From assembly GCA_018398765.1 (NCBI GenBank), contig JAHBMJ010000280.1:10001-51402 (forward strand): a stretch of DNA of 41,402 nucleotides. The letters run 5' to 3'. Position 1 is the first letter of the stretch, and the number at the start of each line of letters is the position of its first letter. The position numbers and the translations under genes are program-made. The stretch comes from Chromera velia (Eukaryota; Sar; Chromeraceae). This document shows, piece after piece, positions 4,765 through 38,900 of the stretch. The notes beneath the pieces were generated by a model. That model made no database searches and was not told where the DNA came from. It worked only from the letters and a program-made list of their open reading frames with translations.

Positions 4765-7276
4765 CTAGCCATAAAATTTCAATGACAAAAAAATTAAATG
4801 GATGCATGTCCACATGTTTAACAGTAAATTGACGCAGCTTTTATGATCGAGTCTAGTGAGACTCGCTGGGAGGGTCGTAATCAATGACTTCCGGAAAAGC
4901 TTTCTGCAACTGCATCGCTCTTTCGCTCTCTTCCAGTCCGCGCGCGCGTTACCGGAGAGAAAGACCTTCGAGAGGAAGGGCATTCTTCTTGAGCCAAATA
5001 TGTCGGCCAGTATTTCAGGTGTACCAGTGGAGAGGATGTTATCCTGAAGATGTAGATGCCGCAAGGGGGGGGGGGCGACGATTCATCCACCCATCTCTCA
5101 ACTCACCCAAACCTGCGTCATTCAGAGCACATTCGATCAGTCTCAGCACCCTCAAGGAGGGAAGCTTGTCACCGTCTAGGGCAGACGAGAGCGCGGCGGC
5201 CTCTGACTCAAAGCTGACACGAACGAACGTCAGCTCGCGAAGGGAAGACAGCTTGCCACTGCTAAGCCCCGTGCAAAGAGAAAAGACCGCTACGTTTGAC
5301 TCCTCAATCAATCTGACCTCCAAGACCTGCAATCGGGACAGGTGCTCGGAGGCCAGACAAACGGAAAACGTGGCAACCAGTGCCGACTCAAAAGTATCGC
5401 CATACACATCTGAGAAGTGGACCCACATTTGCCGTAATGAGGCGGCGTGGGGGGAGTTGAGGTTAGTGACAAGAGTTTGGAATGATCTCAAATCTTCCTT
5501 TGTATCTACACACAGATTCATCTCACTCAGAGAGGGCACTTGGCCTGCAGCAATCAGGGAGGAAAGGGACGCAGCATTTTTTTCGTCCATCCATTTTACG
5601 AAACGCGTTTGAAGCTTTACAATTAAGGGATGGGAGACAACCCTCGCTCGCTACCACGCATAATGATTCCTTCTAAAAGTGCTCGCTCGGGTCTCTGGAT
5701 CTGTCAGACGAAGAGACACTTCCTCAAGGGTAGCCATGCAGGCTCCCGGATCTGTCAGCGCCCTTCCGAACGCTTCTGCGGTTGTCTGGTTGAAAATCCC
5801 TACCTCTGCTGAGACCTTCTGCAGATACGAAACCCGGCCGGAGCGGAGGGTCTCAGCGCAACACGTCAAAGCGGTATGGCGTTGGAGACTGCCGTGCGCT
5901 TGCAAATGCAGCTGAAGCCTCATCAAAGGAGGGGGGGATCTGCCCATACACAGACCCTCGCACAGAGCGACAAGCATTTGATTGGCAGGCCACCCCAATC
6001 TCACACGGCGCAGAGAGGGTGCTTTACCCGTGCTCAGCACCTCACCTAGCTCTGCCCCCCCCTTCCCCCCCTGACACCAGTCACAGAGATCAAGGTCCTC
6101 GAGCAAGGGCGTATTCCCCCCCCCCAACGCCTCAGCCAATTCCAAAATCCCCCCCCCAAACTCTCATCATCGTCGGGACAACACCATCGCAACTGGAGCT
6201 TTCGGAGATATGCCGCCCCCCCCCGACCCTAGAGCCCTAGCTCGACAACGAGGACACTGACGCAGATCGAAGCCGACGGGGCGATGCACTCTCATCAATC
6301 TGAAAATTGAGGATGAGGGCTTCCATTCTGGGCACCCGCCCTTCCCGCAGGGCCCTACCGAGAGTTTGCACCGCAGCATCGTAATTCTCTTGCTGACAAA
6401 ACCTGTTGTTGGGTCCTATTTCAACTCTGCTCAACAGCGGCGTTTTGCCGTCTGCCACTGCTTCAAAAAGAGATCGGGCAGCATTACCCGAAAACTCCGA
6501 ACAAGAACACAGGCTCAATACGGTGACGCCAGACAGGCGGCCGGAATGCACGGTGTTGGCAAGGGCTTGCATCCCCTCCCCCCCCCCACCCCTTTGGGAC
6601 CCAGACAGGCAAAGATCTTCAAGGAACGGAACGCCCCCCCCATCGACCGCGTTCATCAGAGCGGCAAGTTCTCCCGACTTTATTTTGGTGTTCGCAAGGT
6701 TGAGGATGCGGAGTTTCAGCAAACGTCCCGCGGCTGCTATGGCTGGAGCGGACACACGTCGATCTGACGCCCCCTCAACTCCGATCGGCTCGTCAAACAA
6801 TTTGTTTTCGCTTAGATCCAACTGCTCCAACTCTCCCAGTTGGTCTGTGGAGAGAACCATAGACAGGGGACCGTAGTCCCTGTCATTCTCTTCATCAGCT
6901 TCTTTTGTGTGGGTAAGAGAGTTATTCTTCAGAAGAAGAACCTTCAGAAAAGGGACTGCACCCGCGGTACAAAGTGCAGCAGCCAAATGCTTGAAACACC
7001 CAGCAAAAATTTCATTCTCGTTCAAATCGAGTGTTTGCAGAGAGGTCACTCTCTTCTCTTTCAAAACTTCAGCAAGGGCCTCCACGCCCTTTTCCTTCGC
7101 CCCTGTGCGAGCGAGGCCGAGGCACTGGAGGGGCGCAGAGAGACCCCTCACCAGCGCCCGCACCCCGAACGGGCCGAGCGGGTTGTCGCTCAGATCCAGG
7201 GACAGAAGGGCGGGGAGCCAACGAGCAGCGAGGGTGGAGCTGAGGGTCTCCATGGACGGGCTGCGGAATCCATTTT
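4765..7276 (-). pseudogene. Leucine-rich-repeat (RNase-inhibitor type) gene, disrupted
   Basis: Minus-strand reading frames at 7276-6237, 6210-5651, 5650-5076 and 5064-4765 together encode about 25-30 LRRs of the ribonuclease-inhibitor type (for example LLSLDLSDNPLG, LQTLDLNENEI, LRHLHLQDNILS). Such LRRs are protein-binding scaffolds. The first piece follows a good acceptor (ttgttcgttgcag, exon from 7276), so upstream exons are expected. Continuity is broken: TAG at 6239-6237 with a shift across G runs at 6216-6224 and 6149-6157; an in-frame TAG at 5653-5651 after which the same frame continues through more LRRs; and a one-base shift at the 11-base run 5065-5075. Recent pseudogenisation, homopolymer sequence errors, or very short introns could each explain part of this. 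LRR identity is firm; functionality is doubtful. Confidence 0.7.
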
Positions 7277-7304
7277 CTGCAACGAACAAATAGCATCGGA
7301 GCAC

Positions 7305-11169: not shown

Positions 11170-13281
11170 ATGCGACGGCTCCTTCCCACAACTCTCCTCT
11201 TAGCCTTCCCTGGTGTCGGACGCACCTTTTACCGATCTGTCCATGAGGCTGGGGTGGGCTTCGACTGCTCTGAAGAAAACAATACATGTGAGGAAGTCAC
11301 TGTCCCGCCATGGGAACAAAGTGGCAGCGCATGGTTGCAGCAACACCTCGAGTACAGCACTCGCGTCTATGCACAGCAAGTCGTGACCAGGACGCAAGAG
11401 CTCCGGCGTCGCTATGGGGGAGAGATGGAAAGTGGGGGGGGGTTGAAATTTGGGGACGCTCAGCTTTGGGATCTGTTCCCTCCTGCCTTCAATTGTCCCT
11501 TCAGGGACAGGATCGGTCAGAGCTCCATGCAAGGAGGGGGGGATGTGTGCAATTGGCAAGCAGTAGCCCCACAGGGGGGGGGAGAAGATCAATGTGAGGT
11601 TTTTAGCTTTACATGGGGGGGCACTGACATGGGTTTCGAAAATGAATTCCCCGCGGTTACGGGATGTCACGTCACAGTTTTTGACCCCACAGCCGAGTCC
11701 CTACCGGGCGGGGCTTTCCAAGAAAATCCGTGCGGTGCGTTTCATGGAGGGTCTGTTGATTTTGTGCGTTTGGGACTTGGGGATGAAAACGGTGTGGGGG
11801 CCAACGGCACCTTCCACGTTCGAACGCTGTCCAATCTAATGGACGCGCTCGGTGTCCGTCGACTTGCGTTTCTGAAACTTGACGTGAAGGGGGCTGAGTG
11901 GAAAGCAGTCGAGGAGATGAGAACAAGCGGGGCTCTCTCCCGTGTAGACCAACTGAGTGTCGTCCTGCATTGTCCCCCCATCTCCCATCAAATGTCGACA
12001 GAGAGCGAGAGCATTTCCCTTCTGAGCTCTGTGCTCCGTCTGTTCCAAACTCTCGAAAGTGAGGGATTGTTCCCCTTCGCAAGGGAGTTCCGAGACACCG
12101 TTTCTCCCCCCCTCCCCATCATCCAGTATTCCTTTGTGCGGACCCCTTCCATGTATCTCTCCCATGTGCCCTACCGATATGCGCACAAGAGATGCACTGG
12201 ACGTTCCTGGGTGGGAGAAGGGGGCGGAGAGCAAAGGGGGGGGAGAATTGAGAGGCTCCGCGTGCTGCGCGCCTCTCTCGAGAGAGTCGTCTTAGAGTCT
12301 TGTGTCCAAAAGAGTGTAGAAATGCAAGGCAGCAACAGCAGCAGCAGTCTGCTTCGCTCATTTGCAGGGGGGAGGAAGGCGATTGCAGTGTTGCAACGAG
12401 GGAGTTTGAGTGGTCAGGGTGACCAGGTGTTTCTGAACCTTGTGTACCGCACCGTCAGCTTGTTGGAACGGGAATGGTCACTTGGCTACGAGCACATTAT
12501 ATTGCACGAGGGGGACATTTTGGAGGATGCTCAAGAACGAATCAGAAGTGCAGTTGGCGCACAGTTGGCGTCAGATGTGCGGAAGAGAGGGGCTGCCCTG
12601 CGTCTCCAATTTTGTGATGTGTCCGACGTATGGAGAGGTCGAAATTCTCAGCTGTCAGAAGAGACGGAAGAAAAATTAGCAAAGGCAGCACGTCTTGGCT
12701 GTGCGCCTACCGAGCTGAGCCGAAAGTTTCCGGTAGGATACAAAGGAATGTGTGCGTTTTGGTTTGCAGACTTTGCGCGATCGAGTTGTTTGTCCCGTTT
12801 CGAGTTTGTTTGGAGAATCGACGACGACATCCTCCTGACGGGCCCGGCGAATGTGGATGACCCCGCTGTGGTGCACTTGCGGGGTGAGTCTGTGCCGGGT
12901 CCGTTGACTCTGTTGGGTGGGGCCGAGCTAGGACCGTATGATGAGGAAGGGGTGATGAGGGGAATGTCATCTCTGTTTTCGTCCTTTGCAGAACAAGACC
13001 AACATAGGAGATTGCAGTGGCATCCACCACAGGGGGGATTCTGGAACTCCCTCCGATCGAACGTGATGCTTTTCAATATGAGCTGGGTCCGTTCTTATGA
13101 AGTACAAAAACTGGTTGTAGCAGTCGACGACAGTGACTGCATATGGACGAATCGGTGGGGGGATGAACCTCTGTGGGGGGCGGTACAACGCATTCTGGGT
13201 CTTGATACCAGAAGCCTCTTGGTTTCTGTGCCCCATTTTCATTGCCGGTGGAAAGGCTGTGTCTTCCATCACTTAAAGTAA
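11170..13281 (+). CDS. METTL24-like methyltransferase fused to GT15-like glycosyltransferase
   Basis: An intronless 703-residue protein. The start is the first in-frame ATG (11170); it gives MRRLLPTTLLLAFPG, a plausible signal peptide or anchor. Residues about 85-310 match the METTL24-type methyltransferase family (PF13383-like): LWDLFPPAFNCP, CEVFSFTWGG, FENEF, GCHVTVFDPTA and the FkbM-like FLKLDVKGAEW (Asp at about 238). Residues about 400-703 resemble family GT15 (KRE2/KTR alpha-mannosyltransferases): GYKGMC (about 523), VWRIDDDIL (about 551), FWNSLRSNVMLFNMSWVRS, and RWGDEPLWGAV (about 662), equivalent to the yeast ERWGDAPVHS block. The inferred role is transfer of a sugar, probably mannose-like, plus methylation, in the Golgi or ER lumen. 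Several G runs stay in frame. Domain calls are from motif reading, not a search. The fusion itself is directly visible, as no stop or splice site is needed. Confidence 0.8.
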   Translation: MRRLLPTTLLLAFPGVGRTFYRSVHEAGVGFDCSEENNTCEEVTVPPWEQSGSAWLQQHLEYSTRVYAQQVVTRTQELRRRYGGEMESGGGLKFGDAQLWDLFPPAFNCPFRDRIGQSSMQGGGDVCNWQAVAPQGGGEDQCEVFSFTWGGTDMGFENEFPAVTGCHVTVFDPTAESLPGGAFQENPCGAFHGGSVDFVRLGLGDENGVGANGTFHVRTLSNLMDALGVRRLAFLKLDVKGAEWKAVEEMRTSGALSRVDQLSVVLHCPPISHQMSTESESISLLSSVLRLFQTLESEGLFPFAREFRDTVSPPLPIIQYSFVRTPSMYLSHVPYRYAHKRCTGRSWVGEGGGEQRGGRIERLRVLRASLERVVLESCVQKSVEMQGSNSSSSLLRSFAGGRKAIAVLQRGSLSGQGDQVFLNLVYRTVSLLEREWSLGYEHIILHEGDILEDAQERIRSAVGAQLASDVRKRGAALRLQFCDVSDVWRGRNSQLSEETEEKLAKAARLGCAPTELSRKFPVGYKGMCAFWFADFARSSCLSRFEFVWRIDDDILLTGPANVDDPAVVHLRGESVPGPLTLLGGAELGPYDEEGVMRGMSSLFSSFAEQDQHRRLQWHPPQGGFWNSLRSNVMLFNMSWVRSYEVQKLVVAVDDSDCIWTNRWGDEPLWGAVQRILGLDTRSLLVSVPHFHCRWKGCVFHHLK

Positions 13282-14554
13282 TTCTTCAAAGTGGTTTTTG
13301 CTTCTGTATATGTAGACTGTCTAGACAGTGTAGTAAAACAATGTATAATTAACTAGATAATTAGATGGAAAATTGAATTCATTTCTATGAATTCATTTGA
13401 TAAGTGATAAGTGTCAGATTTATTGGTGCCCTATACATTTTGATATGATAGGATATCAGAAATTTCTAGATAAATTTAATTAAATTTAATCATTTATGTT
13501 CTGGGTTTGTCACGAGTAGTTAGAGGTCCAGTGCCGGCGGATGGCTTGCACCGTTTCGGTCTAGGTTTCGGTTTAATCAGTCGACACTGACTCGACAGTG
13601 ATAAACCTAAATAAGGAGCCTAGCAGGAAGCATCATACAGACCTATGCAGACTAATCCCACCGCGTCCCACCGGATAGTCAGAAATCATCTAGAAAATCA
13701 TCTGGGCCGTTATATATACCTAAATCTACCTTTCAATCTAACCTACTCTCCATACCCTGACTGCATCACAAAAGCCTGCGTGATTGTTAACTATGAGTCC
13801 ATAAACGCTTCAAGCATTCTGAATTAATGAAATAATTTGATAGACCAAATCAGTCGAGCAAAGAGCGAAGGGGAAAGGAAAGGACATAGAGCAGCAGCAA
13901 GAATTGAAAACGCATGCTATAAGTTGATCGAAGCCCAGGTTCAAGCCCTTTAAAGCGAGCCTTACAGCCATTGTTTCACAAAGCGTCTCAATGCAGTTCA
14001 TGAAAACATTAATCACGGCCAAGTGATTCCTGGCGGGCCAATGGGATCGGTCTGATCCTCCTTGTTATAAAGTGTTATGAATTAGCGTAAGTGCAGGCTG
14101 TTTTTAGTGCTTCAGGCAGGAGGTTCACCAATCCTGCCGCTCGTAATCTAAAACACAAAGATTAGACGGTCAAGTGTCTTCGCGCCCCTCTATTTGAGCG
14201 CAGTGGCGAAACAACAACATTTGGTCTGATAGTTAAAGACAATGATGTGACTTGTTTTGAAAATATTCTTCGAGTTGCAGACATCTCTGACTTTAAGAAG
14301 ATTTGGAGAAAGAAGATGACGATGTCAGCAGGCAACAAAGGCTTTATGGGGGGGTAGGCAGAGGTTCCTCTCAAAGTGGTTGAAGTGTTGGAAGAAGGCA
14401 ACGCGCATGTTTTATGACCGTTCAAACAAGTTCAATCATACATATAATACTATAAATTTAAACATAAAAATTTTAAGTAAAAAACGTACAAAATAATGTA
14501 AAATATACTAGGAAATAGTAGAAGAAATCACTAGAAAAATATAGACCTAGAGGG
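13282..14554. other. Intergenic, AT-rich
   Basis: Downstream of the METTL24/GT15 gene. Mostly AT-rich with a more GC-balanced patch at 13510-13620. Short open frames at 13645-13827 and 14162-14425 carry no recognisable domain. Nothing else seen. Confidence 0.5.
13315..13328. repeat. 14-bp perfect palindrome
   Basis: ACTGTCTAGACAGT reads the same on both strands, 34 bases after the stop codon of the METTL24/GT15 gene. It could be a 3' UTR hairpin or chance. Confidence 0.8.
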
Positions 14555-14786
14555 ACCTCTCTGAACCTAACTACCACTTGAAAGTTGAAGCCGAATTTGT
14601 GGATAAGCTTGAAAGTCTGCGCCGCAGGCGCGGATCACTTACGGTGTCTTGAAAGCCAAAGCCGCATATCTGAATGGTGTCTTGACCGTGTATGCCGTAA
14701 GCATGGATGGTCTCTTAAAAAATAATGCTGCAAATAGAGATCATCTTGATTAGATTTTTTCAAGTAGCACTTAGGTTCAGGGAGGT
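14555..14786 (+). mobile_element. MITE-like element, copy A (hairpin-repeat family)
   Basis: About 232 bp with terminal inverted repeats: acctctctgaacctaa at the left, and the complement of acctccctgaacctaa at the right. Inside are about five degenerate units of 33-36 bp built on CTTGAAAG...GCCGCA, one holding the hairpin GCGCCGCAGGCGCGG. The reverse complement of copy B (19150-19392) aligns along its whole length at roughly 80% by eye. It encodes no protein. No clear target-site duplication was found. Confidence 0.7.
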
Positions 14787-15404
14787 TCTTAGAGGTTAAA
14801 GATATATATATTGAGTTAAAAAAAAAGTTCTTGTAAACAACTGTAAGTATTTTAAAAAAACTTGTTGGGGTTTTAGAAGCTCAAAACCGGTCTTAAATTG
14901 TTTTAGCCTCTTTTAGTTTTTGCAGGGGGGGTATTTTTGTAAATAAATTTTATTTAAAGAGTTTTTCATTTTTTTTTTTTAAGTTTTTTTTTTTTTAATG
15001 GCCTACGCCTAGGGATAAGTGCACTGCTGAATCCATCCATCTCTTCCCCTTCGTCTGCATGGCCTCGCGTGCCCCTGATGCATGCTGTTACTACTAATTT
15101 GGGCCGTACGTAGGCATCATGCAGTGCATTAATTAGTGAGCATATAATAAAACTTAGAGTAAATCAAATTTAACTAGAAATTTAATTTTTTAAAAAAGAT
15201 AATATGCTAGAGATAGGGTTAATTAATGATAATTGTATATAACACGTATAGCTAGACCTATCGAATGACGCGCTAGATGGCGCCTCAATCTAGGCGTCAG
15301 TATATAAGCACCGTAACAATTAAACGCTAGCCGTGTTTAGCAAACAGTTTGAGTATGTCATTCAAAATTGTTTATCGAAATCGTTCAAAATATCGAATGT
15401 CTTA
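14787..15404. other. AT-rich intergenic stretch, poly-T runs
   Basis: Contains T-rich tracts near 14968-14998 and an AT-rich block to about 15330. It faces the 3' end of the minus-strand GT/EGF/MT gene. No gene seen. Confidence 0.5.
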
Positions 15405-17705
15405 CTACAATTTCCTTCCGATGAAGTAGAACCCTTCTGTCCTGTGCAGAGGTGCTCGACACCTGCCAAGACCTCTCAAGATATTGGGGATCGAATACCG
15501 TCTGACAAATATTGGTTCAAAAAAGGAGAAGAACCTTTCATACACCGCTCGGAAAGGGCGGATGGGGTGTAGTCTGGAATCCAGATCCGACCAGTAGTCA
15601 GGTGGCATGTCGTCGTAGTATCTGTCGTTGAAGATCAAAATGCCCCCTGGGCGAAGGGACCTGTACAGATTCTCCAACAGGGCGTAACCGTTTTGGACGT
15701 GCTCAATCACATTGATCAGCACAACGGTGTCAAAGCTTTCACGAGCATTCACCAGATGCTCACCCCCTGCATTCACCACTGTGACAGGAAAAGGGAAGAA
15801 ATTCGAGTCATCACCCGACCCCCCCTGTCTCCTTCCCTTTGTCCCTGCCCCTCCCTGCTGCTGCTCATCAGGATCGTGTACTGGTATTGCGGTTGCATTC
15901 CTTTGACGGGAGGGCATTCTCTCAAGCCGTCCGGTCCGATAAGCACACGTCGGCACATCCCGTGCGTACACAAGCGCGCTGGGGTCAACTAAAGTCGCGC
16001 TGCGCACCCCCCCCGTCAATTCACTCCGTGCTTCTAAGAGCACTCTCAGCTGGGTCCACGGCCCACAGCCCACCTCTGCATAGTCCCCCAACACCGTCGG
16101 AAGGTCTCTGTAATTGTCAAATCCCCACAAATGATCCTCCCCCCTATCGTCCAAATCCGTGTCCGGAGCCTGTCTCCACACCTCCCCCTCTTCATCCTGA
16201 GCACGTCTCCACCTGCTGGGAGGCACCGCCATCCGTCCCCACAGCGGGTGCTGGAGGCAGGCGTCACTCGAACCGTGGCAGGGACCGTGGAAGGATTCAA
16301 GGGAGGGATGCTCACATGCAGGCCCTCCAAAGCCAGGCAGGCAGTGGCACTTTCCTAGAAAACACACACCCTCCTGACAATCAGGATCACATCGCAGGAG
16401 GGCATCTGCGCCCCCCTCCTCTCCCCTCAACGTGACAACACTGCTTGCTGCACCTTTTGCCTGCTGTCTCAAAACACTCACTGGGCCCTCTACGGGAGCA
16501 CCTTCCCTTCTGAAAAGCTCTGCAGAAAGAGTCCATTCAATCTGTTTCTCCTCCCCCTCCGCCCCTTTCACCATGACTGATTCACTCTCTTCAAGCTGCC
16601 CTCCTGCGTCGACCGTGGCTTCTTCCACCCCTCCCCAGTTGGACCCTCTCACTGTGCCCCGCCCACCCTGTGCTTCCCCCCCCTCTATTGCCTGGCCGTC
16701 AGTATGACTGGAAGAATTTAATTTGGACGGTCGGAACACTTCGAGGGTGCGATGTGCGAGCACGCCATCGGGAGGAAAGAATTCATACGCACCGGCTGAG
16801 TGGAATTGGGGGCAGAGACCCGACCGCTCTGCATCCCCCAGCAACGATGAGGAAGCTGGAAGAGAGAGGGGGTGGGCCCTCATCATCCGAGCAACTAGGA
16901 AGGACAGAAGAGTATCCTGCGCAGTGCCACCCGGCGGATGGGATTTTTCATCGCCCCTTCCCTCTTCTTCCCTGCCGGCAACACAAAGAGGGTCGAGGGC
17001 ACAAGCTGCCAAGGGGGTCAGAATGCTCTCCACAATTTCGGGCTGCCGTACGTCGAGAGCCAGAATGTCCCCAGAGACCAATTGGAATTGGTTTTCTTCT
17101 TCAATCCCCAAACCCACAAACCCCGAAGAGAGACCTCGGGAATGGAGCCATTGCACAACCCGTGTGCGAACCTTCTCTTGCTTTTCAGGCTCGGGTCGGC
17201 TGCTTCTCGCGGCAGCGTATGCCGAGAAGCCTGTACTGGAGACATGCTGAATCAGTGCGGAGACAGGCTCACTGCTGAGGAGACGGACTCCCGCATCCAA
17301 AAACCACACGACCTCTGCCTCCTTCAGAAGTGAGAGGAGGACGAGAGGCACCCACGCCCTCAAGGAGACGTCACGAACGTGGGGAGGGAAAGACGCAAAA
17401 TCAAATCGGCTGCATGAGGTCTGCTCGTCCATCCAAATGCAGGGCGAGCTGTCGAGGACAATAAATTTGACGGGCACTTTCTTTTCAAAGAGGCGAAGAG
17501 AGACGAAGAACTCTTCTGCCGACCTCAGGTCCTGTTGAGAGTACCCGGATACAACCAGAAAGGGCACTCGCTGTGCTTGCCTCTCTTCAGCCTGTTGAGC
17601 CTCACAAATGTCCCGCCCAGTTTCGGTGCGGCTACAGGTGAGCCCGGACGCCTGCAACAAAAGATTCCACAGAGTGGAAACAAACAACACCAAGTGTGAC
17701 CGCAT
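15405..17705 (-). CDS. Secretory GT-like + EGF-like + SAM methyltransferase protein
   Basis: A single-exon protein of 766 residues. ATG at 17705 is chosen because it begins a clean signal peptide (MRSHLVLFVSTLWNLLLQASG); the open frame upstream has no earlier ATG. Residues about 35-330 look like a nucleotide-sugar transferase fold of the DUF1647 kind: VPFLVVSGYSQQDLRSAEEF, VKFIVLDSS, and EVVWFLDAGVRLL, in the place of a DxD-type motif. An acidic linker follows. About 435-465 is an EGF-like module (CQEGVCFLGKCHCLPGFGGPAC). From about 540 is a class I methyltransferase: EVGCGPWTQL (motif I) and FDTVVLINVIEHV with LRPGGILIFNDRYY (post-motif II/III). It probably acts in the Golgi or at the surface. 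The EGF and methyltransferase calls are solid; the GT call is weaker. MITE-like copies lie on both sides. Confidence 0.75.
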   Translation of the reverse strand: MRSHLVLFVSTLWNLLLQASGLTCSRTETGRDICEAQQAEERQAQRVPFLVVSGYSQQDLRSAEEFFVSLRLFEKKVPVKFIVLDSSPCIWMDEQTSCSRFDFASFPPHVRDVSLRAWVPLVLLSLLKEAEVVWFLDAGVRLLSSEPVSALIQHVSSTGFSAYAAARSSRPEPEKQEKVRTRVVQWLHSRGLSSGFVGLGIEEENQFQLVSGDILALDVRQPEIVESILTPLAACALDPLCVAGREEEGRGDEKSHPPGGTAQDTLLSFLVARMMRAHPLSLPASSSLLGDAERSGLCPQFHSAGAYEFFPPDGVLAHRTLEVFRPSKLNSSSHTDGQAIEGGEAQGGRGTVRGSNWGGVEEATVDAGGQLEESESVMVKGAEGEEKQIEWTLSAELFRREGAPVEGPVSVLRQQAKGAASSVVTLRGEEGGADALLRCDPDCQEGVCFLGKCHCLPGFGGPACEHPSLESFHGPCHGSSDACLQHPLWGRMAVPPSRWRRAQDEEGEVWRQAPDTDLDDRGEDHLWGFDNYRDLPTVLGDYAEVGCGPWTQLRVLLEARSELTGGVRSATLVDPSALVYARDVPTCAYRTGRLERMPSRQRNATAIPVHDPDEQQQGGAGTKGRRQGGSGDDSNFFPFPVTVVNAGGEHLVNARESFDTVVLINVIEHVQNGYALLENLYRSLRPGGILIFNDRYYDDMPPDYWSDLDSRLHPIRPFRAVYERFFSFFEPIFVRRYSIPNILRGLGRCRAPLHRTEGFYFIGRKL

Positions 17706-18737
17706 CCTTCCAGTATGCAGCCCCAGACCCTCCAAATCTCAACGATGCCCGCTCAGACAAATTAGTAAGGGGTAAAGCTTTTCGGCAACAGACGTAACAG
17801 CGAAGGCTTCCTGATGCAGCCTACACCTCAGACCATCTCAGACATTCTCAGACCCGTCTACGAAAACGCAATTTTAATGCAAGGAGACGATAGGAGACGT
17901 CCTCTAGAAGATACAAGTCAGTTCGCGCGCCTTGCGCGCGAAAGTAAGTCTGGCAGAGCGCCGGGATCGGCTCAGTGGCAGTGCATAATAGTGCACGCTA
18001 CAGCGTTTCGTTGCCGCAAATCTTCTCTGTTCAATTCACAGCAGGAGGGGAACCAGAGGGCCTTTCCAGCCTGAGTGCCTTCTCGGTAGGGAGGTCGCAG
18101 CGTTCTCCGGGTCTTTCGACTCGGAGGGCGCAAACTAAGCAATCCTTTTGTGATTGATTCTTTATATACAAATAAGAAGGAAAAAAAAAAAAGAAAAGGG
18201 GGCAAGCGCATGAAAGGAAAGGAAGAAAAGAAGGTTGAGAAAATAAGGGGCAAATTAATGGGGAGGGTCTCTTTAAAGTTGTTCCCCGCCGTCAAAGGGT
18301 AGCCTTTGCCAAGGGGACAAACTTTTAGAAAGTTTTTGCTCTGCCTCTCCCCTCTTTTCATTGTTCTCCAAGTCCTACTCTACCGCTGCTTAAGAAATAA
18401 GCCGCAGTAAAAGTGATCAATGAGCAGTGTTCCTAGATTCAGAACAGACGGAACAAACCGGAACCTTTTGACAGACTAGGCTAGATCCGCCCCTCATACA
18501 CGGGGACGTGGCATGCATAACAAAAACCTCAATCACGTGCATAAGCAATACTCAGCAATTTCGGCTCCTTTACTGATTAAAAATAATTAAAAAATACTAT
18601 AGTAAAAGTTAGTAAAAGTGCAACGTTGTTTCCTGAAAAACTCATACTGCAGCCTTAAGCTTGCTGCAGCCTGCTGCCTGTATGATGGAAAATCTTGCGG
18701 AAAATTCTGAATAAATTAGAAAAAAATATATAAAAAA
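17706..18737. other. Intergenic, promoter side of the GT/EGF/MT gene
   Basis: No convincing gene. A minus-strand frame at 17972-18361 lacks a domain. There is an A run at 18181-18192. The stretch nearest 17706 should hold the promoter of the gene ending at 15405. Confidence 0.45.
17922..17942. repeat. GC-rich hairpin, 9-bp stem, 3-base loop
   Basis: TTCGCGCGC, CTT, GCGCGCGAA: a perfect stem about 220 bases upstream of the start of the minus-strand GT/EGF/MT gene, so within its likely promoter or 5' UTR. The alternating CG stem could also favour Z-DNA. Confidence 0.85.
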
Positions 18738-18981
18738 ACCTCCGTGACACTTCAGTAAACTTGAAATGCCACGCTATAGGTGCGGCCAGACTTGAAACGC
18801 CTGCGCCGCAGGTGTGGCTTAAGTTGAAGGTAGCGCACCAAAGGTGCGGCCAAAATAAAGTACATTTGAAATGACTTGAAATTTTTTTGTGAAAGGCGCA
18901 GACAGTCTTGAAGGAACTGCGCCGTAGGCGTGGCCAGCATTGAAAAATCTATTTCTAGACAGACTGGAGTGTCAGGGGGGT
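18738..18981. mobile_element. MITE-like element, copy C (related family)
   Basis: About 244 bp between terminal inverted repeats acctccgtgacacttcagt (left) and the complement of acccccctgacactccagt (right). Like copies A and B it is filled with CTTGAAA...GCGCCGCAGGTGTGG units of about 30-35 bp, but its terminal repeats differ from theirs (GTGACACTTCAGT against CTGAACCTAA). Both flanks carry TATAAAAAA-like runs, so any target duplication is ambiguous. No coding capacity. Confidence 0.62.
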
Positions 18982-19149
18982 TTATAAAAAAAAAATTTAA
19001 AAAATAGAAAAATGAAATTTAAACTGAGACACCCATCTTCAAAATTGTTGATAAAACATTTCACAACAGTCACCTCTTTTACTTCACCTATTTCAAGTTA
19101 GCTTCACCACTAATCGATCGGTGAAAGACTAGTTTATACTAATTTACTA

Positions 19150-19392
19150 ACCTCCCTGAACCTAAGTGCTATTTGAAAAAATATTATCAAGATGCTCTCT
19201 ATCTGCGGCATCATTTTTCAAGAGACAGTCTACGCGTCACGCGTGCGGCGTAGACGGTCAAGACACTGTCTAGATATGCGGCTTTAGCTTTCAAGATACT
19301 GTAAATCATCCGCGCCTCAGTGCGGCGCGGACTTTCAAGCTTATCCAAAAATACGGCTTGAACTTTCAAGTGGTACTTAGGTTCAAGGAGGT
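19150..19392 (-). mobile_element. MITE-like element, copy B (inverted relative to copy A)
   Basis: About 243 bp, starting acctccctgaacctaagtgc and ending with the complement of acctccttgaacctaagtac. Its reverse complement follows copy A unit by unit, including the GGATAAGCTTGAAAGTC stretch and the GCGCCGCA hairpin unit. Copies A and B lie in opposite orientation on the two sides of the 15405-17705 gene. Confidence 0.7.
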
Positions 19393-19968
19393 CGATTTAC
19401 TGACAGATCGACCAAATTAATAGAAATTGATATAAAATTTGATGTAACTCTTATCGGTCACAGTAGCGTCACAAGTTTACTGGTAACGCATGATCGGTCG
19501 GCAAGATCTAGACAAGATCTACACTGGCACGCTGCCGCCAATCTAATCAACCTTTAATCCACTTAAATTCAGGTTTTAGTTTGATAGCGTGAGGCTGAGT
19601 GAGCAACCCATACAATTTTTGTCGTTTTTCGATCGACACAGAAAATGAAATATCATTTGTTTAAAATTCGATCATGCAGGCAGCAACATGAAAAAAACTT
19701 TAAGCGCGATCGGTCGGTAACATCTACATAAGGTCGCTAATCTAGTCAAGCTTGAATCAATGCTTATCAATGCTGCACGCAACGCTCCTTTTCAGCGTGA
19801 CATTGTAAGCAGCGCAACTCTGGTCTTCTCTTCATCTGTGACTCTTCATACAAGTGAACAAAATTCAGCCAAGAGAATGACGCCAGATCACAAGGTTTAC
19901 TTGGCTGAGAACCCGGGTCCCTTCCTCTCGATTTTCTTTCAATTCCGTTTCCTCATCTCGTTCCTTCC
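19393..19968. other. Intergenic between MITE copy B and the EGF/MT/GT gene
   Basis: Moderately AT-rich, with no recognisable gene. A GATCGGTCGG string recurs near 19491 and 19709. It probably includes the 3' UTR of the minus-strand gene ending at 19969. Confidence 0.4.
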
Positions 19969-22900
19969 TCATTCCTTGGCATGCATGCGTTTGAATTCGT
20001 CAGAATGACATGGCAGTCGCCTCCATGCAGTCACTCGAGCATGAATCTCGTAAGGGTCGTTGTGCGCGCAAACCCCTTGGTCTGTAACAAACCAGTGCCC
20101 AAAGGTCCTTGCCCGCAGTTCCTTCGCCATTCCACTCTCCAAATAATTGTTCTGGATGACTACTGGAGGTGGCGTGTCCCTACACCTCATTTCGGGCCGA
20201 TCATACCAGAGCCCGGAAGGATACAATGCCGGGGGCAGCTGTAACACCCTCAGCCTGTTGCTGTCCACATACGCAGAGAAGTACGCAGCCTCGTTTCCGA
20301 GGTGCGCAATGGCCCTGGGCCCCTTTCCCTTCCCGTCCGTCCCCTCTTTGAGCAACTTCAATCTGAGGTCCAGGTCATGAAGCGCCCTTCCTCTGACCCA
20401 CGCGTACATTCTCTCGACTGCTGGAGACGGCCGAATCACTGCACGCTTGCATGCACGAGTGCGCCAACAACAAACATGCGGAGAGAAAAAGAATTAAAGA
20501 CGTTCAGTCTCCATCAAAGAAAGTCGAGGCACACCGGCCGTGTGCAGGCAGGAAGGCGACAGACAGCCGTCGTTGATTCTCAGAGAAAGAAAGAATCTTT
20601 GGAAGGCGGCGGCAAAAAAAAGATAATCATGACTCATGCAGCCATACTAGAATGGAAGGAACGCAAGCGGCCATGCAGGTAGGGAGGGAGGCACTCGGGC
20701 ATGCAACAGGCATCCATTCCTGCATGATCCCACAGAAATACGGGTGCGTTAGTCAGATGGCTAGAAATCAGTTCACGCATGCAGCAGCTCCTTCCCACCC
20801 CCCCCCAAGATTAAAAAAATGCCAACCAAAACGACAAGAGAGGTATGAGATTTGCGTTGCTGCATCCATGCCAACTGCCTTGCAATCATTGGCGCAAGAA
20901 AAAATATCACCACGGACACAAGCACACCTTCAGCAAATCCAAAAAGTGACGTGCAACAGAAAACCTCAACGAGGCTGTTTGTTTCGGACAACACAAGAGC
21001 GTCAGAAAAGACCAATGCCACTCCCATGCATCAACCCATCAACGCACCCACCCGCATGAAATCCAGGAGCGTACCACCCCTTTTCAGGATCCACAGAGGC
21101 GGCGATGTCCCATTCCTCCCCTCCCTTTTTCGCTTCTGCGAGCTCGGTGAGAAAATTACGGGCCCACACAGCATCGCTTTCAGCGAAAAGGAACGGAATC
21201 TGTGCCTTGACCAGCCTCTGCAACAACCATAGTCTCTCTGCCATCAATCCAAAAAATCCGACATCTCCGTACGTCAAAGACCCCCCCCCTTCCTTGGAGG
21301 AGGCACCGCCAGATACCCCCACCCCCCTGGTCCACACCGCGTTTTCAGGTTGCCACAACACCTTGTGAATTTTTCCCGGCACTGAGGGAAAATTGGAAAA
21401 AGACTCGGCGTCTAGAGCCACAAACAAAGTGGATTCCAGCGCTCCCCCTAATTTCTCTAGGTTGCACAGGAACGAAAAAGTCAACCAAAGAAAGTTGCTG
21501 TCAAACAAGACGATGTTGACAAAACCCGATCTAGAAGTTTGCAAAACTTTCGAGGCAGCAGCAACGGCGGTATCGGCAGGGTCCTTCTCTCTCTCTCCTC
21601 CCACACCCTCAACTGTACTCTTCCCATCGCCCCCCCCGCACTGACACCCTTCTGATGGTGCCTCCTTCGCTGACCCGGCGGTCGCGGCGGAACACGTAGA
21701 AGGAGGGGAAGAGCAGGAGCCTCCCCCTTTCTCCCCCCCCCTGTTTTCTGCTTCTGCTTGAGCTGACGTTGGGGAAAAGAAACCTTTTTCGCTTTCCGGG
21801 GGCATCTCATCAACAGAGGGGACCTGGAGGTCCCAAGACTTTCGGAACCTTTCTCTTTTTTTCTGTTTCTTCTTCTCCACCCACTCTGCCTCCCTCTGTA
21901 GCTCCTCGGAAGACACTGCAGGGAGAGGAAGCAGTCGGCCCGCAAAACAGATGGAGGACCCCCTCCCACTTTCGGACCGATGTTCTATCTCCCCACCCTC
22001 TGATTTTTCTTTTGACTGTCCGTCAATGAGGAAGTGTTGTTCTATGGACTGAAATTTAGAGAGAAATCGGAGCAGCAACGTAAGAGATGCTTGGACCGGG
22101 AAAGACGTTAAAGCTTCTCCTGTTAAAGGCGAAGGGTGGGCTTTGTGGTCATACCACCTCTCACAGAGGACCAGAAGGCCCCCTGCCCTCAGACCTCTGA
22201 CTATGGAGCGGAGAGTCTCCATGCCTTCTGCAAACACAAACGACAGAGCCCCGAGGAGTAAGACAGAGTCGTGTGACTCGGGAACAATGTCTGAGGGAGA
22301 CGACAGAAACGATGTGTCGTAACCAAGCACTGTACTGTTAGTCACGGCATAGGGGTATTGTCCTCCCTCTATCTGTTGCGCAACCTCCATCAGTCTGGGT
22401 CTGTCTGCGTTGACTACTGTAACCGACTTCACGGAGGGCAGATCCGCAACACCCCCCAGCAGGGCGGAGAACTGCACCGACGGACCCGAAGATATTTCCA
22501 ACACATCTCCCCAATGCATGCCCCAGGGAGATGTCCAGTCGGTTTTCACGCAGTTCACCAAATTCTCCCTTTGTCTGTCCCCCTCACTCTGCCCTCCCCC
22601 CCCCTGGAGGAGACGGGCGAGACGATTCTCCTGCAACACTTGCCAGAAACGGAACGGAAGGCGAATAATGCCAGCCCGCTCGGTCCAGAAGCATGCGAGA
22701 CGGCACTGCATTTCATCCCCGACGCACAGAGACTGCAGCAGCGTCATTTCTTCGAACGAGATCCCCATTGCGTTGGGACAGAGAGGGAGGTGAGGAAACC
22801 AAGGGGTGGGGGGGTCTGTCCACTGTGTGCAGAGTCTACCCGACCTGCCAGGCAGACAGTAACATTCCCCTAGAAAATTTACGCCAAACTCGCCGCACTC

Positions 22901-23074
22901 CAAAGCCGACAGTGCCGACGAGGAAGGTGAAGGTGCTGATTCGAGACCAGACTGAAGGGCTCTGACACCTACATGGAGACAAAGGAGCAGACAGACAGCC
23001 TTCCACATGCTTGAGGAGAACCAACGTCCTGGTTTTCTCCTTTTAACCACCATCTGTACACCAAGCGACGGCAT
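19969..23074 (-). CDS. Secretory EGF-like + SAM methyltransferase + Nucleotid_trans protein, two exons
   Basis: Exons 23074-21052 and 20438-19969 encode about 830 residues. The donor (gtgggtgcg at 21051) and acceptor (gcgtgcag before 20438) keep phase 1 and join the two halves of one domain. After an N-terminal hydrophobic segment (AVCLLLCLHVGV) comes an EGF-like module (CYCLPGRSGRLC). A divergent methyltransferase region follows (GDVLEISSGPSVQFSALLG; DSVLLLGALSFVF; LRAGGLLVLCERWYD), then a charged Ser/Gly/Glu-rich linker. The C-terminus is a Nucleotid_trans (PF03407-like) glycosyltransferase: VNIVLFDSNFLWLTF, PFLFAESDAVWARN (acidic DxD-like motif), then in exon 2 IRPSP, LPPALYPSGLWY and VVIQNNYLESGMAKELR. 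Domain order is the reverse of the neighbour at 15405-17705. The methyltransferase motif I is degenerate (ISSGPS for GxGxG), so activity is uncertain. Confidence 0.75.
20439..21051 (-). other. Intron of the EGF/MT/Nucleotid_trans gene
   Basis: 613 bases. Without splicing the upstream frame reads into a stop at 21002, before the PSGLWY and NNYLESG part of the glycosyltransferase. No gene is seen inside. Confidence 0.65.
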
Positions 23075-26582: not shown

Positions 26583-27306
26583 TTAACTGCCTCAATTCAA
26601 TTCAATTCAATTCAATATATATATATATATATATTATAAATATTCTAGTACTTTTTTTTTTTAATATAGAGTGCAGGCCCTATAGCTGCCAAGATGATTG
26701 TATGAGCAGAGCAAGAGTGGCTAAGCACAGACGATGACGAGATGAACGGAACGCTGTGACTTCCTGAAGCGAGGGGGGATGAAGACAACCACCATGCATT
26801 CCAATGGTGATTTTCAAGCTAGAGAGAGCTCCTTCAGATAGTTGTGTTCATCATTTCGTTCCCCCACAGTGAATGAGTCGATCAGGAAGACTGAGAACAT
26901 AAAACTCCTTCCTTATACTCTTGACATAGTATCAGGCTTTTCTATCAGACAGAATAAGAGGGCATAGAAAGCTAGATAGAATTCATAGAAAGCTGCAATA
27001 CGAAAACAATTGATGTAAATTGAGTAACCTGATTGCATATATGAGTCCTGATATTACATATATGAGTCGATTTAGCAGCGACGCATGCACCACATACTGC
27101 CGTCTCATTAACTTAATTTACTCGGAATGAAAGAAACCGCTCGATACTTATTGGGCACAAGCAAGCAGGACGTGTCTCTCCCATGAGAACCCCTAAGTTT
27201 ATAGTAGTTGCTTGCATTATGAGCGGCCATTGAAGGCTAGTACCCAGATCCTAGCCCAGATCTAGTCTCTTAGAGCCCGGTATAGACTTGCATCTGCTTA
27301 ATTGCA

Positions 27307-27342
<36 letters not shown>

Positions 27343-27371
27343 ATTGAATTGAATTGAATTGAGGCGGTTAA
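26583..27371. mobile_element. Candidate ~790-bp inverted-repeat element
   Basis: The left end reads TTAACTGCCTCAATTC, then (AATTC)n and (AT)n. The right end is its reverse complement: (AT)n, (GAATT)n, then GAGGCGGTTAA. About 37 bp match on each side with one or two differences, before the AT runs. The interior carries no recognised protein. It may be a non-autonomous DNA element or a microsatellite-seeded inverted duplication. Confidence 0.5.
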
Positions 27372-35900: not shown

Positions 35901-38900
35901 CTCGAAAGCGTCTCTTCTCAGTTTCTTCCTTTCATGAACCGAGCTTGAACAAAGAGGCGTTTATTCCGTAGAGGCACACCAAGAAGTCCTTTGAAACCTT
36001 TGAGGATCACTCACTCACACCGACCTGCAGAGCCTGCAAAGCGGACTCGGCATCGAACACCTCGACCTCCGTGAGACCCGACACCTTCACCTGCATGAAT
36101 GAACAAATGCACAATGGGGGGAGTGCATGACGGATGGAAGGGGCATCCATCAGCAAGGAATTTTGTTTTGCTGTCTGTCGACCTGCCGCCGGTTCCTTCC
36201 GTCCTCTCTCCCTCCACCCCTTCGTTCCGTACTTTCCTTCAGTGCTTTCTCCTCGTCTTCGCATCCTTGCCTTGGTCCCTTCTTGCGTGCTTCACCTTGG
36301 ACCTTCCTTCTCAAGTATCGAGTGATCGATGCATTCGACCACTCAACAGAGAGAGCATGCACCCGGGTCGGGCGGACCCTAGGCCTCTTCCGAGCATGAC
36401 CTCATCAGAAGAAGCCAATGATGGCGGGAGAACGAACTTCGGTAGAAGACGGGGGCAAGTCAACTCAAAGTTGCATGCGTTTTTCCAAGTGCACCCTCGG
36501 CCGGGCGACAAACAGAAGACGTGCAGGAAGGAAAACTCATTGGAGGTTGAAGAGGAGAAGAGAAAGAGGCACAGCTCTCCCAGAATTGTCTGTCCGCTCT
36601 TTCACAGGGAGGGAGGGCAACAGAGGAGGGAAAAAGACAAAGATCCCATGGGTCCATCGACCCTCTTTTGTTCCTTCCATGCATCCTTATTTCTTTCTTT
36701 CTTTCTTTCTTTCGAGAGACACTCCAGGCACTCACCTCTGAGAGATCTTCCTGCACCTCACACACCTGCCCACTGGGGCTGAGCAGGTCTCTGCAGACTC
36801 ATACGAAGAGATACGGGGAGATAGCATAAAAGAAGAAGGAATCTAAAGGATGGAGTGGCCAAGTCAAGTGGGAGGAGAAAGAGCGAACACACAGAAAGAA
36901 AGCTTTACAAAATTAATTTGAAATATCTCGAAAGAGATGGGGAGGGCATCATTCAGAACGTAAGTGAACGAACAGGTACACGATCGAGGAGAGAGAGACC
37001 AGAGAGAAATAGACCGGGGGGGGGGGGAGGGCCATCCACCAACAAACAAACCAACCAGCTAACGGACCTGATGCTCTCATTGTAGACCTCCATGAAGCTC
37101 ACGGCAACGCGGACGTTCACCTGCTTAGTCGTCGAGGCCCCTCCCCCTGCCCCTGCCGCTCCCAAGTCTGGATCCAAATAATCCTCCTGCCTCCCTTCGG
37201 CTTCCTCTTCAAGACGCGCTTTTGCCTGAATGAACGAACGAACGAACGAATGAATGAATGCATGAATAAATGAATGAATAAATGAATGAATGAATGAATG
37301 AATGCGTGAATGAAAGAATGAATGAATGAATTCTGACAGGAAAGACGGGTCAATGTAGAGATTGAGAGTTGGGCGGACAGAGGCACACCGGGAATGAAGA
37401 TGACAAAGTCTGCATGCTCTCTTTAAATTTTCTGAGTTGAAACGAATTATGCGGAGGGGGACAGACACACTTGATCACGCAGACATCCAAACCAGACAGA
37501 CAGATTCTCTCGACGGAGGCATGCACCTCGGTATCTGCTGATTCATTCCTCTAGCTCCCTCTCGCTCTCCTTCCTGTTATTTTTCTCTCGAGTTCGCGGC
37601 ACCTGTATACGCGCATCTGCGTGTGTATGTGTGAGTGTGCGTGCATGTGTGTGCCCACAAAGGCTTCCGGACCGAAAAGGCCCAATGCGCATAATCGGAT
37701 CAATTTATTAACAGTATATTTGTCTCTCCGAGCAGATGCAGAGTATATTTGCTTCTCCCTCCAAGCAGATGTAGAATATTTCATTTCCTCATGTCCAACT
37801 TCTCTTCTCTCTGCTTTTCTGTTCTCGCTCTCAGAGTCTCCGGCTGTTTCCTTTCTTTCTTTGTTTCTCACTGACTAACTGACTGAGTGACAGACTGATC
37901 CACTCACTCACTCACTTTGAACACGTCTCGAATCGCACGTCCGATGATGCCCTCTTCCTCTCCGGTGGTGCCCGTGCCCCCCCCTCCACCCAACATCGTG
38001 AACGTCTTTCCTGCTCCCGTAGCTCCGTACGCGAACACTGTGCCTGCATGCATCGGAAAGCGAGAAAGCAGCCAGAAAGAACTGAAATGAAAACAGAGGA
38101 CTCCTCCTGTCCTTCACCAGCACCTGATCTTCCTTCATTGCGCTTTCGCAAACATGGAAAGACAGACAGACGGAAGGAGATGTCCGCAAAGATCTTCAAA
38201 GAAGAAAAGAGTCACCAACCAACCGACCAACCATTCACTCCGCCCATCACCTTGTCGATGATGGGTCTTGCAGCGGCGCTGTAGATTTCCTCCTGCTGGC
38301 TCTCGGGGCCGAATGCTGCGTCAAACGCATACCTGCAGGCATGGACGTGCGCGTGCTTTCTTGTGCCGAATGAGTTTTCAAACGCAGCCGAACGAGGACA
38401 GAACAAATGTGGAAGGGCAAGCCTGAATGGATGGATGCATTTGAGCTTCTCTCAGAAGAAAAGAGAGTGGTGACAGAAGGGAGGAAGGAAGCACAAGGGA
38501 TGGAAGGGGGTAAAGGAATACGGCCGCGAAAGACGCTGACGTGAATGGACTTGCTCTTGACCCTCGCTGCTCGAATTCCTGCAGCTCTTTCTCTCGACTG
38601 CAAATCGTCAATCTGACTCCCCCCATCACCGATTTTTCTTCTTTATGCAACTGGCTGACTCGTTTCTTGTGGCCTGTTGGGATTTGAGGTACTGGAGCTG
38701 TCTCTTCGCAGGCTTGGCAATGGAGACCACCTTTGAATTCGTCAGGTGAATCACGTGCTGCTGGTCCTCCCCCAAAGGCCGGATGCGAACTGCAGCCAGG
38801 GAGAGGAGGGGGGGGGGGGAGATCTGTGCTGCTGGTTCTCTCCGGCTGTCGGATGCAGTAGTCACTGGTGCCGGAAGAGACAGTAACATTGCTGCTGTAG

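Follow-up and report, generated by a model that had tools for sequence, protein, structure and literature searches.

Three large genes at one locus

The window considered here, the whole stretch of 41,402 nucleotides of Chromera velia DNA that was analysed, carries three consecutive large genes, referred to below as A, B, and C. A preliminary description had picked them out, and three long coding frames are confirmed at the coordinates listed below. They are real genes: their stop-to-stop frames exceed 426 codons, the longest frame in 100 third-order Markov windows (the longest frame of the window itself reaches 777). Counted from the ATGs chosen in the analysis, A encodes 703 amino acids, B 766, and C 690 before splicing. 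A is on the plus strand and ends 2123 bases from B, while B and C are on the minus strand; the three therefore do not form an operon. A and B each consist of one frame without interruption, and the joins between their domains are therefore not artefacts of gene modelling. The features, with methyltransferase abbreviated as MT and glycosyltransferase as GT, are as follows.

11170..13281, plus strand: gene A, one exon, 703 amino acids; weak N-terminal hydrophobic stretch, METTL24-like MT, putative GT15-like GT
11467..11934, plus strand: MT region of A, residues 100 to 255 (CEVFSFTWGG, CHVTVFDPT, FLKLDVKGAEW; Methyltransf_22 and own-genome profile)
12712..13203, plus strand: GT15-like region of A, residues 515 to 678 (GYKGMC, FVWRIDDD, NRWGDEP; GT15, KTR4, and own-genome profile)
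15405..17705, minus strand: gene B, one exon, 766 amino acids; signal-like start, N-terminal part, EGF-like motif, class I MT
15486..16136, minus strand: class I MT of B (motif I EVGCGP; LRPGGILIF; Methyltransf_11 at 2.7e-10, Methyltransf_23 at 5.6e-9)
16311..16391, minus strand: EGF-like motif of B (EGF_Teneurin at 2.6e-4, under cut-off)
16731..17570, minus strand: N-terminal part of B, residues 46 to 325, suspected to be GT-A/DUF1647-like
19969..20438, minus strand: exon 2 of C, second half of the Nucleotid_trans GT (placed by eye; Nucleotid_trans after splicing)
20439..21012, minus strand: intron of C, GT...AG, placed by eye and supported by domain continuity once spliced
21013..23074, minus strand: exon 1 of C; anchor-like start, EGF-like motif, MT-like part, first half of the GT
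22043..22507, minus strand: MT-like part of C, homologous to that of B, with a degraded SAM motif I (EISSGPS)
22829..22900, minus strand: EGF-like motif of C (aligned with B; EGF_2 only at E 1.3)

The N-terminal hydrophobic stretches are judged by hydropathy, which is not a signal-peptide predictor. The N-terminal peak is the highest of the protein in C (1.64) and also in A, where it is weak (1.18); that of B (1.48) is its third highest, with two inner stretches being more hydrophobic.

Domain families of the three proteins

What do the parts of these proteins resemble? Pfam matches of A, B, and C were listed up to an E value of 10, with filters that remove most matches above 0.1. The MT of A is supported as METTL24-like: it matches Methyltransf_22 at 21.8 bits (E 1.6e-4), just under the gathering cut-off of 22.4, and a profile built from four METTL24-like members of its own genome at 1.8e-14, where the best of 300 decoys reached 0.78. 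In contrast to A with its probable GT, the four other frames of this family that were scanned contain no GT in Pfam at E <= 0.001.

The region of A at residues 515 to 678 is probably a GT, as several weak but agreeing lines suggest. It matches GT15 (PF01793) at 21.3 bits (E 2e-4) and is called only "GT15-like" because this is under the gathering score of 25; in a scan of the whole protein the E value is 0.0019. Residues 523 to 670 match residues 204 to 359 of KTR4 in phmmer (E 0.025, domain E 0.076), and the conserved GYxxMC, WRIDDD, and RWGDxP blocks of the KRE2/MNT1/KTR mannosyltransferases stand in the KTR4 order. Unlike in those enzymes, the GT15-like part is fused behind an MT. A profile of GT15 proteins from the same genome finds it at 0.0028, with none of 300 shuffled decoys reported. 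As a single query against the genome at E <= 10, the GT part of A returned itself and one place at 6.3, and the protein search did not recover the two GT15 genes found elsewhere in the genome. Genome family searches with PF01793 and PF13383 likewise listed other genes and not A. The AF2 model from the single sequence was unusable (pLDDT 35.6). The proposed METTL24-like plus GT15-like composition of A thus holds for the MT and is probable for the GT, with both matches under their Pfam cut-offs.

The class I MT family of B is firm, at 41.2 bits for Methyltransf_11 (PF08241; cut-off 21.2, E 2.7e-10), and its SAM site appears intact. The N-terminal part of B is a candidate GT. Pfam gave no GT family for it, the only match being Phage_T7_Capsid at 0.059; NCBIfam and PHROGs gave nothing. 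We presume a resemblance to DUF1647, as did the preliminary description, and PF07801 is not among its Pfam matches with E up to 10. A genome search for DUF1647 also found nothing, and its controls were silent too. The best PDB matches, alpha-1,4-glucan phosphorylases at 0.055 (domain 0.42), were taken as chance. Within its own genome the N-terminal part finds, apart from itself, two weak matches (0.018 and 0.195), whose frames look unlike a GT when read by eye. AF2 on the single sequence was again unusable (pLDDT 32.8). A missing family match may only mean that this part has diverged.

In C the situation is reversed. Its GT belongs firmly to Nucleotid_trans (PF03407): unspliced, C matches positions 3 to 109 of the 208-position profile at 29.3 bits, and spliced it matches positions 2 to 205 at 38.2 bits (cut-off 22, E 2e-9). 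What sets it apart from this family is the EGF-MT module in front. Neither Pfam nor NCBIfam recognises a methyltransferase in C; in PHROGs, C matches one methyltransferase family (0.031), which B meets too, at 5.7e-4. SAM motif I reads EISSGPS in C versus EVGCGPW in B, with two glycines missing in C, while LRAGGLLVLCERWYD is kept in C and aligns with LRPGGILIFNDRYYD of B. An MT fold or activity in C would otherwise follow from the homology with B.

A local set of GT-MT fusions, as first proposed, is a fair description in which the GT of B and the MT of C are inferential. The fusion is probable in A; a GT is firm in C, probable in A, and a candidate in B, which is not the outcome of two genes in three lacking a GT fold.

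The EGF-MT module and its surroundings in the genome

As their sequences indicate, the EGF-MT modules of B and C are related by descent, with the GT or N-terminal partner on opposite sides of the module. BLASTP gives 4e-10 for the pair alone. The Smith-Waterman score of the module is 130, versus 34.4 +/- 4.8 (maximum 57) in 500 shuffles, and that of the MT part alone is 100, versus 30.5 +/- 4.8 (maximum 54). When the modules were compared with 30 other Methyltransf_11 frames, four METTL24-like frames, and 300 decoys, the best other match of B was C (2.5e-6; the next was at 0.062), and the only other match of C at E <= 1 was B (1e-6). In the genome search the module of B met an EGF match elsewhere in the genome (C1903, 0.06) just ahead of C (0.069), and whole B at E <= 0.001 found only itself, C not being recovered. 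The partners show no such kinship: pairwise comparison of the GT parts, with 300 shuffles each, scored 47 for A-B (maximum 65), 33 for A-C (58), and 43 for B-C (53), all within the shuffle range. The preliminary description had the three genes as different families and not simple tandem duplicates. For B and C the claim of unrelated families fails, and the second claim is half right, as these two have the module in common; A has no significant similarity to either.

Are such fusions found elsewhere in this genome? Elsewhere it has stand-alone genes of all three kinds: METTL24-like ones, whose hydrophobic starts were read by eye, the two GT15 genes, and a further Nucleotid_trans gene. A genome search with Methyltransf_11 gave 56 matches, B being the 31st; the best 30 were read as frames, one of them mostly N. 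Scanning 15 of these 30, the four METTL24-like frames, and the one Nucleotid_trans frame in Pfam at E <= 0.001 uncovered no further MT-GT fusion, in a scan that is blind to fusions split by introns and to GT parts that match as poorly as that of A (0.0019) or go unrecognised like that of B. That fusions are widespread in the genome was rejected, given that the 15 Methyltransf_11 frames scanned had no GT at that threshold. BLASTP of the parts of A, B, and C against all 30 Methyltransf_11 frames found nothing at E <= 0.1. An EGF pattern also run on these frames had been fitted to B and would not pick up C; no result rests on it.

Possible coupling of sugar transfer and methylation

What might these enzymes do? 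We consider it evenly balanced between right and wrong that A, B, and C are putative secretory-pathway enzymes, each joining a GT part with an O-methyltransferase part and thereby coupling sugar transfer to methylation. Each would most likely extend a growing glycan by a sugar and methylate a hydroxyl, either on this sugar or on the adjacent one, the two steps being coupled in the Golgi, presumably on the luminal side, and comparable in action to the chlorovirus protein A064R. A would do so with a METTL24-like MT and a GT15-like part, C with a degraded EGF-MT module and a Nucleotid_trans GT, and B with the same module, an intact-looking SAM site, and a probable GT as its N-terminal part. B and C would stem from one EGF-MT ancestor, presumably through local duplication, and carry different partners on opposite ends. 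Methylated glycans, the products first suggested, would fit this coupled action.

There are two precedents of different kinds. (i) A064R of PBCV-1 is a GT-GT-MT protein with proven activities, in which one polypeptide both transfers sugars and puts an O-methyl group on the terminal one, as proposed for A to C; unlike them it is viral, its GTs are of other families, and an EGF motif is not mentioned in the available text (PMC9614988). According to the same text, the PBCV-1 enzymes discussed there, two excepted, are without an identifiable signal peptide. (ii) The "glycoclusters" of Caenorhabditis elegans, to which the cluster of A, B, and C would be comparable, combine putative GTs from different families with potential methyltransferases and DUF1647 proteins, their joint function being unproven; they are clusters of genes, and the available part of the paper does not mention fusion (PMC7614267).

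How does coupled action compare with its rivals? A real possibility, if short of probable, is that the genes are together by chance with one local duplication, A being an unrelated neighbour and B and C having diverged afterwards, all serving different pathways. The opposite strand of A, its distance of 2123 bases from B, and its lack of significant similarity to B or C fit this, although all three genes seem to follow an MT-plus-GT plan and no other such fusion was met in the frames scanned, weak evidence from a scan that misses GT parts like those of A and B. With A on the opposite strand and not significantly similar to B or C, one pathway for all three is not established. The absence of A from the genome family searches and the insensitivity of the fusion scan lower our trust in the coupled reading and raise it in chance proximity.

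Somewhat unlikely, in our view, is that the EGF-MT module of C is a dead MT fold serving to position or bind the acceptor and that the N-terminal part of B is no GT, leaving A as bifunctional, B to methylate, and C to transfer sugar. The degraded motif I of C (EISSGPS versus EVGCGPW), its want of a Pfam or NCBIfam methyltransferase match, and the want of a GT family match for B all speak for it. Against it, LRAGGLLVLCERWYD of C aligns with LRPGGILIFNDRYYD of B, both proteins meet the same PHROGs methyltransferase family, if weakly (0.031 and 5.7e-4), and the silence over B may only reflect divergence. It is improbable that the MT parts have targets other than the hydroxyls of glycans, for example carboxyls of lipids or proteins in the secretory pathway: the general class I families matched by B are uninformative on substrate, but the MT shares its protein with a GT that is firm in C and probable in A, and A064R provides a glycan-methylating precedent (PMC9614988).

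Building on coupled action, a more tentative proposal is that these are undescribed eukaryotic "add and cap" fusions, Golgi GTs with an O-methyltransferase of their own, that arose independently at least twice at one place: as METTL24 plus GT15, and as an EGF-MT module placed once before and once behind a GT. A literature search by title and start of abstract returned no eukaryotic GT-MT fusion enzyme, which does not prove that none has been published. If true, the proposal would supply candidate enzymes for eukaryotic glycan O-methylation, which have long been missing. N- and O-glycans with O-methyl groups are reported from microalgae, worms, and molluscs. To the knowledge of the authors of a 2020 review, as far as its available text goes, no microalgal glycan-methylation enzyme had been characterised (PMC7773692), and a 2023 paper states that it is unknown which methyltransferases modify the N-glycans of C. 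elegans (PMC7614267, available part). A, B, and C may fairly be counted among the candidates for making methylated surface sugars, whose enzymes are poorly known, and genes in which an MT is joined to a GT are testable candidates that also hint at the acceptor sugar.

Some smaller observations concern relatives of the parts. In collections that are not eukaryotic, no relative was confirmed for the EGF-MT module of B, the GT part of A, or the N-terminal part of B among viral contigs, nor for the last among bacterial genome contigs or, by tblastn, among plasmids and phages. Because these collections lack eukaryotes, such absence says little. In the Chromera genome itself, FkbM has 10 matches, four of them at the METTL24-like places (five of the 10 frames were read by eye only), and Exostosin (PF03016) has six.

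Layout of the three candidate fusion genes

Three neighboring Chromera velia genes (A, B, and C) form a real locus. One of them, at the least, is a probable glycosyltransferase-methyltransferase (GT-MT) fusion gene, and all three may be. Each start is an ATG chosen in the analysis:

Gene A: 11170-13281, + strand, 703 aa
Gene B: 15405-17705, - strand, 766 aa
Gene C: ATG at 23074, exon 2 at 20438-19969, - strand, 843 aa spliced
Intron of gene C: 20439-21012, - strand, GT...AG, borders set by eye

The preliminary description had placed three consecutive large genes, each beginning with a secretory N-terminus, at 11170-23074, and long frames are indeed found there, the window's longest stop-to-stop frame having 777 codons versus a maximum of 426 in 100 third-order Markov windows. 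Since A lies on the + strand and B and C on the - strand, with gaps of 2123 (A-B) and 2263 bases (B-C), this is no operon. No further such gene was seen among the listed frames of at least 120 aa, read by eye, in the contig's first 10 kb upstream of the window (about 5 kb of it N).

Domain composition of A, B, and C

The MT part of A scores 21.8 bits against Methyltransf_22, below the Pfam cut-off of 22.4, and A is absent from the 6 matches, at 5 places, that this family finds in the assembly containing the window (GCA_018398765.1; 177.8 Mb). A profile of four frames from that genome (L002-L005), which match the family at 6.1e-31, 2.7e-21, 5.5e-14, and 1.2e-13, reaches A with an E value of 1.8e-14, versus 0.78 for the best of 300 shuffled decoys (Z = 20000). 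The GT part is probably GT15-like, judging by its sequence. It scores 21.3 bits (cut-off, 25; whole-protein E value, 0.0019), and residues 523-670 match yeast KTR4 (0.025; domain, 0.076), with the A blocks GYKGMC, VWRIDDD, and RWGDEP following the KTR4 order. KRE2-type 1s4n appears at 1.1, ranked after unrelated chains at 0.7 to 1.0. The GT15 search of the genome matched two other genes, not A; their profile gives A 0.0028, with no decoy reported, and the GT part of A as a single-sequence query of the genome did not recover them.

The predicted class I MT of B is a firm assignment (Pfam Methyltransf_11, 2.7e-10; Methyltransf_23, 5.6e-9) and is preceded by an EGF-like motif (EGF_Teneurin, 2.6e-4, under its cut-off). 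What of its N-terminal part? It begins with a hydrophobic stretch; its sole Pfam match is a phage capsid family (0.059), and NCBIfam and PHROGs gave none. The top PDB matches were alpha-1,4-glucan phosphorylases, GTs that belong to another fold class; at 0.055 (domain, 0.42), this kinship was set aside as chance. The blocks FDFASFPPHV, AWVPLV, VVWFLDAGVRL, CALDPLC, and QDTLLSFL, in that order, presumably resemble DUF1647, which is a lead; the DUF1647 search of the genome returned no match, nor did its controls. A single-sequence AF2 model of this part reached a pLDDT of 32.8, too low to be usable.

In C, the Nucleotid_trans GT is firmly predicted, and the second exon is supported because splicing lifts this match from 29.3 bits (profile positions 3-109) to 38.2 bits (positions 2-205 of 208). 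The MT-like part of C matched no methyltransferase family in Pfam or NCBIfam, and one in PHROGs at 0.031, which B meets at 5.7e-4. As judged by alignment, it is homologous to that of B: the module common to both (EGF-like motif plus MT or MT-like part) gives a BLASTP E value, for this pair alone, of 4e-10 (23% identity, many gaps) and a Smith-Waterman score of 130 versus 34.4 +/- 4.8 for shuffles (maximum, 57; n = 500), while the MT part alone scores 100 versus a shuffle maximum of 54. SAM motif I reads EISSGPS in C instead of the EVGCGPW of B, and C may therefore have lost methyl transfer.

The proposal that each gene joins an MT to a GT thus holds for the MTs of A and B, the GT of C, and, probably, the GT of A; against it stand the GT of B, unmatched in three databases, and the MT of C, unmatched in two. 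Two of the six assignments (GT of B, MT of C) are inferential, and one (GT of A) is only probable. The further proposal of different families fits A (Methyltransf_22-like and GT15-like) and the Nucleotid_trans part of C, but not the homologous modules of B and C.

Related genes elsewhere in the genome

Are such fusions common? Methyltransf_11 has 56 matches in the genome, B included. None of the 15 frames scanned (Pfam, E <= 0.001) has a GT beside it, at a threshold that would have missed A's own GT and with introns able to hide fusions; second domains were Aldolase_II (two frames) and PP-binding (one). The Pfam scan found no second enzyme part in four METTL24-like frames or the other Nucleotid_trans frame, and no MT was seen in the stretches of the two GT15 genes that were read by eye. 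GT-MT fusions are suggested to be rare in the part of the genome scanned. L041 and L046 have MT frames, similar by eye, with Aldolase_II behind, one with 2-Hacid_dh (2-hydroxyacid dehydrogenase) in between.

Four METTL24-like proteins start with hydrophobic stretches (read by eye), and a wider set of secretory methyltransferases is suggested. METTL24-like matches occur at five places and FkbM-like matches number ten, four of the ten at the same places (L002-L007 and L060-L069 together); several of the frames there have a hydrophobic start by eye.

Possible working, parallels, and minor features

GT15 and many Nucleotid_trans members are Golgi enzymes using nucleotide sugars, and SAM is the methyl donor for METTL24-like and class I MTs. 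If each fusion has an N-terminal signal or anchor, its two halves would face the lumen, and lumenal MT halves would need SAM import. A C. elegans study names samt-1, a putative SAM transporter gene, among the glycome mutants (PMC7614267). The same study describes putative GTs that lie clustered with potential MTs and with DUF1647 genes, their joint function unproven, and clustering as such is therefore not new. In PBCV-1 A064R, the second domain adds a terminal rhamnose and the third methylates its O-2, a coupled order that is proven for this enzyme (PMC9614988). By analogy, we infer that A, B, and C could follow the same logic, adding a sugar and then methylating that same sugar.

Gene B is flanked by two elements of about 240 bases in opposite orientation (14554-14787 and 19149-19393; 83% identical over 245 aligned positions), each MITE-like, with its own terminal inverted repeats (29-39 bases, 79-86% complementary); no further copies occur in 295,534 bases (window plus loci from the same genome). 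Another inverted repeat, 26583-26643 / 27311-27371, is 93.5% identical over 62 aligned positions. One further frame has a family match:

Leucine-rich-repeat frame: 6237-7304, perhaps on to 5039, - strand, LRR_1 4.9e-8

The two frames adjoining it have no Pfam match. The frame at 36953-37468 (- strand) holds what we take to be a kinesin-like motif, VAVSFMEVYNESI, with no kinesin match in Pfam. Upstream of the window on the contig, a 477-codon frame (L020:2117-3550, - strand) shows a putative resemblance to the beta-subunit family of coenzyme F420 hydrogenase.
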